Of a stretch of 64,000 nt of DNA, positions 57,957 to 63,619 are shown piece by piece. Under the pieces are notes generated by a model. It had not been told where the DNA came from and did no database searches. It saw only the letters and a list, made by a program, of their open reading frames with translations. How positions within the stretch are numbered: position 1 is the stretch's first letter; every line of letters starts with the position of its first letter. The translations under genes were made by a program, and so were the position numbers. Source of the stretch: Halorarum salinum (lineage in GTDB: Archaea; Halobacteriota; Halobacteria; Halobacteriales; Haloferacaceae); NCBI RefSeq assembly GCF_013402875.1, contig NZ_CP058579.1:2356001-2420000 (forward strand), in the 5' to 3' direction.

Positions 57957-59062
57957 TGGCGGATCGTGTCGTACGACGCCCGCTCGACGGATTGGTAGGC
58001 GGCGCTTACCGGGGCCCGGGCGGTCCCGCCGGATGAACGGGGGAGTTCGTTGCCGCGTCGACCCTCGCCGGCGCGGTGAGTTCGCCGGATCGTTTCGATC
58101 CGCCGGTCGATCGTCCAGGGCCCGGTCCGGGAGCATGGCCGCGCGATGAGCGTCCGGGAACTGAAACGGGGCACCGTTCGGGCGGTCCTCGATGGTGGCC
58201 GGGGGGCGCCGTCGCCGGTCGATGCCCCGCCCGGACCGAACCTGCCGCCCGAGCGAGGCACGCGCTGCGACGACGCCGCTGGCGGCCCTCCGACCGCCGA
58301 TTACGGCCAACGGGGCGGTGATCGCGGTCGTGAGCCACGATCCCCATTTGCTATTGCGACATACGGTTTATATGTTGCCGTTCGGGCACCGCCGAGGTAC
58401 TGGATTACGGACAGTCGTAGTAAACCGAGCGGACGGAAACCCGCCGAAAGCGGCAATCGAGCGGTCCGACCGACGCCGTCTGGGCGGCGTCCATCGCTCG
58501 TCGGTTTGGACGCGAACGGCGAGACGACCCGGCACAACCGGCGGATCCGGGGGTTCGACGCGGCGACGCGCCGTATCGGCGGTGCGTCCGGAGTCGCCGT
58601 GAGCGGAACTCCGCCCCCGTCGTTCGGGCCGATTGGGTTCGCGTGCGCACCCGGACGCGACCTCCTCACGACCCCACGGGCCCGGCCGAACGAGGACGGC
58701 CACGATGCCGTCGAGTCCGACGTGAGCGGACGAAGGGGAGTTCCTTTCGGCGGGTTCGTCGAACTCCAGCGGCTCCTTCCTGTCCGTCCCGTCCCAGGGA
58801 ACTGCGGTGTCCGCGCTTTCCGGGCGGACTCCCCGACGAGCGGACGCGTCCTCCCGTCACTGGAGATTCCGGTCTCGGACGCGTAACGGTCGGACCGCGG
58901 AAAACGCCCTCCGGAACGGTGGGGTCGTCCGGTCGGGAAGACGACTTTCGGGCGGCAGGCGGTCACGAGGACGGACGGCCGGCGCGTGATCTGCTTCCCA
59001 CCGTGGGAGGTGGGTTCCCGCCGGTCGCCCTCCTCGACCGCCGTCGGCTCGGCTGACGGGGC
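57957..59062. other. 1.1-kb region without a supported gene
   Basis: All frames here are Arg/Ser/Pro-rich and lack haloarchaeal acidic composition. The one distinctive feature is an AT-rich promoter-like patch around 58349-58377 containing GGTTTATATG and the left copy of a 16-bp inverted repeat. Transcription rightward from it would give an RNA with no recognisable product. The region borders the integrase gene and may be decayed mobile DNA. Confidence 0.5.
58352..58367 (+). repeat. Left copy of 16-bp inverted repeat flanking the integrase region
   Basis: TATTGCGACATACGGT here is repeated exactly, in opposite orientation, at 61019-61034. Similarity continues for TAT after one mismatch. The copy is followed by TTTATATG, which resembles a TATA box. 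Confidence 0.65.
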
Positions 59063-60118
59063 TCAGGCCGGGCCGTACAGCGAGTAGACGTGCCGTTCGT
59101 ACGTCTCGCGGACGTTGTCGCCCCAGTTGTGGGTGTAGGTGTCGACGATGTCGTCGGCGACGTCGCCGCGGAGGTACTTCACGACCCCCCGGTCGCCGGT
59201 CCGCTCCCGGAGGTGCGTCGTGAAGAAGTGTCGGAAGTAGTGGGGCGTGACGTTCTCGGCGGCGCCCGCCCCCGGTTCGTACCAGCCCATCTCGGTCGCG
59301 TGGCGCCGCACGATCCGCTGGACCTGCTCGGGCGTGAGCCGTTCGCCCCAGCCGCTCGCCGTCCCGACGAACAGGGGTTCGGCGGGGGAGACGGCGTCCG
59401 GACGGACGGCGAGCCAGCGGAGCAGCGTCCGTTCGAGCTCGTCGTCGACAGGGACGACGGTCCCCCGCTTTCGCTTGTTCGACGCCGAGCGCGTCTCGCC
59501 GTTGTACGACTCGCCGACGGACGGCTCCGCGGCGACGTACAGCGAGTCGGGGCGGCCGTCGAGCTGTGCGCGCGAGCCGACGTCGTACCCCGGGAGCTCC
59601 CTCGAGAGCGCCAGGTCACGGAGGTCGAGGTTGCAGAGCTCCCCGACACGCATCCCCGTCTTGAGGAGCGCCACGACGAGTGCCCGCTCCAGCGGGTGGC
59701 GGATGCCGGAGACGAACGTGCGCATCCTCGCCACCGGGATCTCCCGGCGCGTCGGGTCCGTGTCGATCCGCTCGTCGAGTTCCTCCATGACGAGCGCCAT
59801 CGGGTTCGCCTCGAACGCCCCGACCTGGGTCATGTAGGCGTAGAACCGGTGGAGGTAGGCGGCGTAGGTCGCGACCGTCGAGTCGGCCAGGTCGGGGTCC
59901 TGCCGGAGGTCGTGGACGAACGCCATGCAGTCCCGGTGGGAGGCTCCGGCCGGGCCGACCTCCCCGCTCGGAGCCGTGCCCGCCGCGAGGAACGACTCGA
60001 ACCGTTCGAGCAGCCTGCCGTACTCCCGCCGGGTCCGCCGGCTCTTCCCGTGGAGCTCCATGTCCTGGAGGAAGTAGCCGATCGGGTCCTCCGGGTCCGC
60101 GGTCTCGGCGCTACTCAT
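59063..60118 (-). CDS. Tyrosine recombinase/integrase (XerC/D-like)
   Basis: This 351-residue site-specific recombinase has an N-terminal SAM-like core-binding domain (about 10-110) and a catalytic domain (about 125-345). The catalytic residues are Arg157 in KTGMRVGELC, a basic strand NKRKRGTVVPV, His293 and Arg296 in PHYFRHFF, and the nucleophile Tyr328 in DTYTHNW. The usual second His/Trp region reads LRGDVADD, so that residue may be replaced. It is the second gene of an operon: its ATG overlaps the end of the ribbon-helix-helix gene by eight bases. It may move a small element or resolve replicons. Confidence 0.87.
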   Translation of the reverse strand: MSSAETADPEDPIGYFLQDMELHGKSRRTRREYGRLLERFESFLAAGTAPSGEVGPAGASHRDCMAFVHDLRQDPDLADSTVATYAAYLHRFYAYMTQVGAFEANPMALVMEELDERIDTDPTRREIPVARMRTFVSGIRHPLERALVVALLKTGMRVGELCNLDLRDLALSRELPGYDVGSRAQLDGRPDSLYVAAEPSVGESYNGETRSASNKRKRGTVVPVDDELERTLLRWLAVRPDAVSPAEPLFVGTASGWGERLTPEQVQRIVRRHATEMGWYEPGAGAAENVTPHYFRHFFTTHLRERTGDRGVVKYLRGDVADDIVDTYTHNWGDNVRETYERHVYSLYGPA

Positions 60119-60572
60119 CGGTCAGCACGTACCCCCCGTCGCGGCCGCTGTAGATGACGAGTCCTCCCTCCTGAACCTCCCCGAGCGCCTCGTCGAGGCG
60201 GTCCTCGACGTCCCCCGCGACGAACTCGAGGAGTTCGTCCCAGTCCATCGCCCCCTCGCGTCGAAGAACCTCGAGGACCCGGTCTTCGAGGCCGCCACCC
60301 CTGGGGTCGACGCCCTCGGAAGGGGGTTCCTCGGAGGCGTCCTCGCCGGCGCCCCCCGAACCCTCGAGTCCGAGCTCGTTCCGGCCGGCCTGGACCATCG
60401 TGCGGACGAACTCGGCCTGTGACATGCCGACTTCCTCGGCGTCCTCGATCCACGCCTCCTTCTGGTAGCGGGGGAGTTTCACGCGCACCTCGGTCCGTTC
60501 CGTGTCGAGTTCGCTCACGATGCATCGCTGGTAGGCCTCCCTTATCAATTCCACCGTTCCGTGTCCTATCAT
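60111..60572 (-). CDS. Ribbon-helix-helix protein with C-terminal winged-helix-like region
   Basis: This 153-residue protein resembles the haloarchaeal DUF5805 type. A ribbon-helix-helix DNA-binding domain is at about 24-65 (TEVRVKLPRYQKEAWIEDAEEVGMSQAEFVRTMVQAGRNEL), then an acidic linker, then a winged-helix-like part (LEDRVLEVLRREGAMDWDELLEFV..GGLVIYSGRDGGYVLTDE). It probably controls, or guides DNA binding for, the integrase encoded with it. The ATG at 60572 has a TATA box at leaderless distance; a GTG at 60518 would match where homology starts. Confidence 0.8.
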   Translation of the reverse strand: MIGHGTVELIREAYQRCIVSELDTERTEVRVKLPRYQKEAWIEDAEEVGMSQAEFVRTMVQAGRNELGLEGSGGAGEDASEEPPSEGVDPRGGGLEDRVLEVLRREGAMDWDELLEFVAGDVEDRLDEALGEVQEGGLVIYSGRDGGYVLTDE

Positions 60573-60590
60573 ACTAAGACAGAGGTGAGG

Positions 60591-60600
60591 GGATAAAAAT
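60591..60600 (-). promoter_or_regulatory. TATA box of the RHH-integrase operon
   Basis: On the minus strand this reads ATTTTTATCC, centred about 24-26 bases before the ATG at 60572. The surrounding 60580-60660 is the most AT-rich stretch in this part of the window. It supports the 60572 start. Confidence 0.6.
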
Positions 60601-61018
60601 CACCGATCAGTTCCTCTAAAAGCATCCTTATCCAGTATCGGGGCACAATTTCGCGCCTTAATCGAACCGGATTCATTCCCCGATCGAATGTCTTACCTTC
60701 TCCACGGTCCGGGTGGGTCTCCCCGATCGCTCGATCGGTTCTCGTCGACTCCGCACGGACGACTCCGCCGGTTCCGTCGGCCTCCCGACCGAACTTGGCA
60801 CGTACCGCCCCACTCCCAACTGCCCGGCGCGGGAGGGGCAGTTGCCCCGGGCGTCCGATTCCGGCGTCGGCTCTCGCCGCAACGAGCGGGCCTCATCCGT
60901 CCCGGAACCGGTCGAGGTCGTCGCCGGGCGTCACCCTCCACCTTCACGCTGGCTCCCACCTGGTCGAAATATGTACTCGGTATCGAGGCAACGTTCGTGG
61001 CTCGTGCCGGTCCCATAC

Positions 61019-61034
61019 ACCGTATGTCGCAATA
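61019..61034 (-). repeat. Right copy of 16-bp inverted repeat flanking the integrase region
   Basis: The plus strand reads ACCGTATGTCGCAATA, the exact reverse complement of the copy at 58352-58367. On the minus strand it is followed by GTATGG, a weaker TATA-like match. The two copies point toward each other across the integrase operon. Confidence 0.65.
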
Positions 61035-61561
61035 CGTTGGCATCCTCCCTCGGGGCCGTCCGCAGTCCCCCGGCCCCGAGTTTCCAGGCCTCCGGTCTCC
61101 GGTTCGAACTCGACCGGCTGGGGTTCACCGGGATATCTCGGATACGGGGCGACCGCTCCCGGAGAGGGGCGGAGCGACTCCGGCCGTTCGAAGCGTCGTC
61201 GTTTTGGGTTCGGGGCCGAAGCCGACCGTATGGGTCCAGTCGTCGAGATCGTCGAAGGTCGGCGGGAGGTGCCCCGACCACAACAGCACGCCCCAAGAGA
61301 GGCCCAGCGGCCGGGTCCACGGTCGAGCCGGGGCGCCCGTCCCGCGCCGACGTGGGCCAGGATCGTTGTCCTCGCGGGACGCCGGACTACTCCCGTCAGC
61401 GCCTCCGTTTCGGGTCGTCGTCCACGTGTCTGGGCGAGATCCGTGGATCCCGCCCGTCCGTCGCCGACTGGCCGACTGGACGGACGCCGAACGGGCGGCG
61501 TTCGTCGAGCGAACCGGATCGTCGATTCGGGGCGGGCGACCGACGCGGAGGGACCGTCGCC

Positions 61562-63458: not shown

Positions 63459-63619
63459 AGACGCTCGCACCGCGACCCATACACTTTATAACGCTATAGG
63501 GATTGTCGAATGGCTTCGCCGGCTCTCGATGGGGCCCCTCCCCGCGAAAACCGACTCGACGCGGCCGCTCGTCGGTTCGAACGGCCGTCGGGAGAACGTC
63601 GGACGAGTCCGCCCCGGGG

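Follow-up and report, generated by a model that had tools for sequence, protein, structure and literature searches.

Putative inverted dif-like sites around a Xer-type recombinase operon point to an archaeal relative of bacterial dif modules in Halobacteria

Background

In Acinetobacter, gene modules lie between inversely oriented sites of the Xer type (dif/pdif, with XerC/XerD) on the chromosome and on plasmids (PMC6449649, PMC12907356, PMC13141974), and elements of the IS1202 family insert in one orientation at dif and pdif sites (PMC10132070). In Pyrococcus and Thermoplasma, the recombinase XerA has one distant dif (PMC2958812, PMC8371274), and the XerS protein of streptococci is a single recombinase genetically linked to its site, difSL (PMC2731167). 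Invertible switches such as Hin, FimB/fimS and Int1 of the haloarchaeal virus phiCh1 have a recombinase beside or inside a segment with inverted boundary sites. A review of Haloferax volcanii lists 12 XerC/D-like genes with no role established (PMC7776575), and within the limited literature covered neither a haloarchaeal dif assignment nor a paper naming the domain DUF5805 was found.

The locus studied here carries a Xer-like tyrosine recombinase (Int) in an operon with a ribbon-helix-helix (RHH) partner. By analogy, the nearest known organisation is the Acinetobacter dif module. In both cases modules are placed between inversely oriented sites on chromosome and plasmids and the sites are IS targets in one orientation (PMC10132070); the neighbours of the modules change in Acinetobacter and seem to do so in the haloarchaea. 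In contrast to Acinetobacter, the haloarchaeal system relies on one recombinase, which has an RHH partner and is itself placed in a module; core rather than accessory genes are found inside the modules; and the site, at which we infer recombination, is different, less symmetric and without XerC/XerD arms.

A near-universal chromosomal Xer-like recombinase is shared with XerA/dif, and XerA structures are the best solved matches of the haloarchaeal Int. However, Int scores below the XerA cut-off and has several inverted sites beside its gene instead of one distant dif; where the Xer/dif layout has a single site with 11-bp inverted arms and a spacer of 6-8 bp, several sites in inward pairs were found. 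The linkage of a single recombinase to its site recalls XerS/difSL, whereas the haloarchaeal operon is flanked by at least two inverted copies, includes an RHH partner and has further site pairs elsewhere. The likeness to invertible switches ends with the orientation of the cassette, which is fixed within genera, and with the flanking genes, which differ between genera; there is therefore no sign of a phase switch.

In nearly all haloarchaea examined the operon is bracketed by inward-facing sites, and together with the site pairs elsewhere this pattern suggests that Archaea have a relative of the bacterial dif-module system that has not been described before. If this is true, a dif-module-like organisation exists in Archaea with core genes (RIO2, L15e, gcvTH) inside the modules, and it would account for one class of breakpoints at which rearrangements recur and for one class of targeted transposon insertions. 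For Haloferax volcanii, a main model archaeon, the analysis nominates one recombinase, its partner and its site as candidates for chromosome resolution.

Methods

The window is the whole stretch of DNA analysed (64 kb). Sites at int were studied in a sample of 80 named int loci, each up to 21 kb in length. A 48-column matrix was built from the int-locus sites; position and orientation were not used in building it. A sequence-only model (R1) was run on 25 and then on 12 whole genomes, and genome-wide statements rest on model searches with E-value limits. RIO2 was assigned by its domains, and the remaining names of bracketed genes are readings of their sequences.

Results and discussion

The features of the window that are referred to below are the following.

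58346..58371, + strand: left putative dif-like site, core (-6 to +19), containing the 16-mer at 58352-58367
58382-58388: YCGRACR-type block 3' of the left site
59063..60118, - strand: Xer-like tyrosine recombinase (int), PF00589, E 6e-16
60111..60572, - strand: RHH protein with C-terminal DUF5805, operon partner of int, PF19121, E 1.5e-24
61015..61040, - strand: right site copy with degenerate outer ATT arm, containing the 16-mer at 61019-61034
63479..63504, - strand: third inward-facing site, between btpA and hisG, 25.0 bits
63620..64000, - strand: hisG (partial), found by tblastn with Haloferax HisG; conserved flank marker for scoring cassette orientation

The exact 16-bp inverted repeat reported in the preliminary description was confirmed at both places. 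The 16-mer TATTGCGACATACGGT occurs at 58352-58367 (+) and at 61019-61034 (-), and the genes enclosed are, as described there, a tyrosine recombinase (PF00589) and its RHH partner. The genome-wide search proposed there returned the same two exact copies, both at the integrase, from two contigs of together 4.26 Mb, the next best match having two mismatches. No third match was found in the window with up to three mismatches (0.12 such matches expected by shuffling). The length of 16 bp is correct for the exact repeat; the identity extends around it (19 of 20 bp), and the sites themselves are longer, about 26 bp. The TATA-like stretch noted after the left copy belongs to the conserved site.

The two copies differ in strength. 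With 39.4 bits on the core matrix, the left one has the full strength of a site; it was also found by model R1 (genome position 2414345-2414388, E 4e-8). The right one reaches 17.5 bits, a score at which about one chance match per 100 kb is expected; it is convincing mainly because it is identical with the left copy and because of its position. A site is present at the equivalent place in one sister genome (G001). The third site, better than the right copy, scores at a level of about one chance match in 3.4 Mb and is a probable alternative outer partner of the left site; a second sister genome (G002) has a site beyond btpA. Coincidence was considered for the repeat as a whole: it would not be surprising for 64 kb of sequence to contain an inverted repeat of 16 bp, and the right copy alone scores near noise. 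Against this, the left copy represents a site that is conserved across Halobacteria, and both copies obey the rule of position and orientation of all int loci, which leaves a chance match a practically negligible probability; the right copy is the only part that could still be coincidental.

The RHH gene overlaps int, and its start codon is uncertain (60524 or 60572). Of 60 relatives, 57 have a match to Int; within the family the figure is 166 of 170 genomes (144 of the 145 good ones), as a rule with one strong copy each. An RHH-type gene was located directly upstream of int at every locus inspected, including three lineages with an Int of 42-46% identity; an apparent absence of the RHH gene in these three was rejected after reading of the open reading frames. 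Among 197 genomes of the phylum, 32 had a DUF5805 match above cut-off, and every one of these belongs to the window's own order. The RHH-int pair is a near-universal haloarchaeal ortholog and no passing mobile element. No int homolog was found in phages, and a strict degenerate pattern of the 26-bp site gave 0 matches in 2.9 million viral contigs; a viral origin is therefore unsupported at this sensitivity.

Int belongs to the tyrosine recombinases (Phage_integrase) by a PF00589 score above cut-off and by its catalytic residues: R157, K215, H293, R296 and Y328, placed by alignment to XerA, are invariant in 14 aligned sequences. Among the best matches to solved structures were XerA of Thermoplasma and of Pyrococcus, and the score against the XerA equivalog NF040815 was 107.4 bits (curated cut-off, 220 bits). 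A canonical XerA above this cut-off was found in none of 25 haloarchaeal genomes. The usual catalytic His/Trp position of Xer recombinases is occupied by D319 in an invariant YLRGDVA motif.

Matches to the 16-mer with one mismatch had been found near orthologous int genes in other genera in an early search. A 19-mer with up to four mismatches gave 121 matches in 58 of the 80 int loci, compared with 2 for the reversed pattern. In the alignment of the int-locus copies, the conserved stretch runs from -6 to +19 relative to the 16-mer and reads ATT(Y)NRTATAGCGANATRCRRTWTAY, which gives a site of about 26 bp, RATTYGATATMGCGANATACRATTTAY, with the 16-mer as its centre. Sites at int additionally carry a G at +22 and a YCGRACR block at +30 to +36 on the 3' side. 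By eye, the left arm, ATTNNRTATAG, resembles what we take to be the Pyrococcus dif arm, ATTGGATATAA. Scores on the 48-column matrix reached 63, with a maximum of 16.6 for reversed sequence. Among the sites of at least 20 bits, 244 of 246 face the RHH-int pair from both sides, and the other two are reverse reads of a true site. They are usually placed shortly past the int stop codon and 0.8-2.5 kb before the int start; extra copies occur farther out, as in Halorubrum, where one is found beyond hisG near -4.7 kb. The sites remain beside int even where Int is only 42-46% identical. Dyad symmetry is weak (0.53-0.56 at best vs 0.27 expected). Partner sites at int match at the central position (8) more often than expected (0.51 vs 0.31), whereas those of most other modules do not (0.35 vs 0.34), so identity of the centre is limited to int loci.

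In many genera the cassette is flanked by hisG and its neighbours on one side and by an RNase H-like gene on the other. Its orientation was one way in 28 and the other way in 17 of 45 loci. The reversed cassette with both flanks in place was found in most Haloferax loci and in genome G021, and the opposite state in Halobium, Halogranum, Haloprofundus and the window. Parsimony on the int tree required at least 3 changes of orientation, compared with a mean of 13.8 for shuffled labels; flips are thus rare and inherited. In loci with both flanks and both sites, the breakpoints fall inside the intervals that hold the sites. All typed Haloferax loci had a single orientation, and none of the typed Halorubrum loci was reversed. 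Flips this rare, on the scale of genera, argue against a fast phase switch, and a phase-variable switch fits the data worse, orientation being fixed within genera and both orientations not being seen among close relatives in the loci typed. Excision between the two copies, which the preliminary description had also proposed, is unsupported because the copies are inverted rather than direct.

Away from int, model R1 found few matches per genome. Neighbouring matches within 10 kb were convergent in 37 of 43 pairs, divergent in 5 and direct in 1, so the two inversely oriented boundary sites of a dif module were found here too; about 100 further matches, mostly weak, had no partner above threshold. 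The convergent pairs enclose 0.13-9 kb of varied content, namely DUF5783 and NifU-like genes, the RIO2 kinase gene with or without L15e, gcvT-gcvH, an HMG-CoA-synthase/S19e-like block, and gene-free segments of 0.13-0.8 kb. Of 30 genomes, 15 have a site on either side of RIO2 and 4 others have one on a single side, and the right site often overlaps its stop codon; in the window's own genus the search revealed none at this gene. These pairs have the core in common with the int-locus sites and are devoid of the YCGRACR block. Scattered copies away from the integrase had been named beforehand as evidence against a recombination role. Such copies do occur, but most of them form inward pairs that enclose other modules.

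Autoregulation is frequent among RHH proteins, and the sites could be operators or promoters to which this protein binds, with int and a small regulon (RIO2, gcvTH, others) under its control. This explanation would account for the distance of about 45 bp that often separates a site from the start codon downstream of it and for the restriction of the YCGRACR block to the int locus. It is very unlikely in view of the second, inverted copy at the 3' end of every module, the separate promoter-like sequences in the module interior, inside of the site, and the pairs that enclose gene-free DNA. The promoter reading lost favour once these inner sequences were found, and the suggestion that the repeat represents two copies of one promoter regulated by the RHH protein is unsupported, as the compared modules have promoter-like sequences of their own and gene-free pairs exist.

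Sites were also present at plasmid integrases of another family, where 7 of 11 records examined, including pNRC100, had one inward site upstream of the gene. The same arrangement, a single inward site upstream of an integrase, was found on the second contig of the window genome. Plasmid integrases with a single site pointing at the gene were seen at L222, L247, L257, L259 and L317-L324.

Transposon ends were found at near-fixed distances from the sites. Of the 20 occurrences of the terminus GTCTCAACTTCC near sites, 18 are located 7-11 bp outside the site window in one orientation, with next to none in the other orientation or inside. Transposases of the DDE_Tnp_1 type had their 3' end toward the site in all 9 outer copies, 6 of them at 196-206 bp, and a second type of terminus ends in GAAACTGTG, its distance being nearly constant. 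By analogy with the oriented insertions in Acinetobacter, these elements are best read as 'site-hunting' haloarchaeal transposons that use the sites as targets. At least two kinds of DDE transposon terminus (GTCTCAACTTCC, GAAACTGTG) were observed outside sites in one orientation, at L219, L241, L242, L247, L257, L259, L319 and others.

With recognisable transposons close by and inward pairs throughout, enclosing 0.13-9 kb of varied content, the sites might themselves be terminal inverted repeats of a family of transposable elements, the bracketed genes being passengers or neighbours. This is highly improbable: the ends of the nearby transposons lie outside the sites as sequences of their own, the contents are core genes whose arrangement is the same across many genera, pairs are few per genome, and plasmid integrases have single copies.

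In 12 genomes of one genus, the module interior, with its own promoter-like elements inside of the site, is conserved up to the site, and the outside sequence changes right at the site. Depending on the species, one and the same long outer flank with a dabA-like operon adjoins a pair around RIO2, a pair around gcvTH or a gene-free pair. Another shared flank, F29/F38, approaches five kinds of module end to about 4-80 bp; it was downgraded as a case of recombination and is weaker evidence because it ends in a transposon-like terminus. Flank exchange and inversion were thus seen between species, one exchanged flank ending in such a terminus.

Alternatively, the sites could be bound in an oriented manner by a protein that organises the chromosome or marks boundaries, possibly the RHH protein or a non-catalytic Int, which would bracket or loop modules without recombination; breakpoints and transposon insertions would then gather where DNA is bound or exposed. 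Ancient, tight brackets around single genes such as RIO2, gene-free pairs and the rarity of flips agree with such a protein, for which partner sites need no central match. It leaves unexplained why sites occur at two unrelated families of tyrosine recombinases and why the cassette was inverted with both flanks kept, and we consider it rather unlikely.

The two copies of the repeat are probably dif-like core sites at which the enclosed Xer-like enzyme recombines DNA. This explains best why oriented pairs accompany a Xer-type recombinase, why single sites are found at plasmid integrases, why inverted and relocated segments end at the sites and why oriented transposons are attracted to them. The original proposal of recombinase sites for inversion is accordingly supported, as the sites accompany the integrase in all families tested, point inward and mark rearrangement boundaries; their presence at unrelated plasmid integrases and the inversion of the cassette between fixed flanks in evolution are further support. 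Recombination at the sites, their cutting by Int, the position of crossover and the function of the RHH protein are what we infer from these patterns; no recombination product was seen in the assemblies, which were compared between different species. Mismatched centres in most modules, weak dyad symmetry, the Asp at the His/Trp position, the fixed orientation within genera and the boundary sites without a recognisable int in genome G156 were counted against the dif-like reading.

For the wider system we see an even balance of probability. It would be a near-universal Xer-type system (Int with RHH/DUF5805) with multiple paired, inverted dif-like sites, in which conserved genes, including the recombinase operon, form invertible or exchangeable modules that shape chromosome order and are parasitised by site-hunting transposons. 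Int would bind the site of about 26 bp, and the RHH/DUF5805 partner would regulate the operon or the reaction, possibly via the YCGRACR block specific to int-locus sites. Recombination of two inward-facing sites would invert the enclosed DNA; if the sites came from different pairs, larger chromosome segments would be inverted and the outside neighbours of modules exchanged. Every such event would leave the sites inward-facing. The predicted outcome is a set of chromosomal 'dif modules' (RHH-int, RIO2(-L15e), gcvT-gcvH, DUF5783/NifU-like and gene-free segments) that retain their content up to the site and vary in orientation and neighbours. The everyday role may, speculatively, be the resolution of chromosome multimers.

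Several minor observations were made. Genome G156 (locus L339; 98% complete) is without recognisable int or RHH gene and has kept boundary sites at the equivalent place; these enclose different genes, including antitoxin-like RHH genes and a tyrosine-recombinase-like fragment. Gene-free segments of 0.13-0.5 kb recur between L31e/eIF6 genes and their neighbours in one genus (L225, L228, L240, L246, L250, L258). Rfam and tRNA searches of intergenic DNA and gene-free pairs gave nothing convincing, only tRNA-Phe outside pairs. Locus L341 (G155:C1:75000-90000) has two same-direction sites with C-terminal int fragments, apparently relic duplications of the int end of the locus. In the small, AT-rich genome G076 (L272), three tandem sites about 50 bp apart are located 1020-1170 bp downstream of the int start, each followed by a GTTTTATTTAAAAC palindrome.
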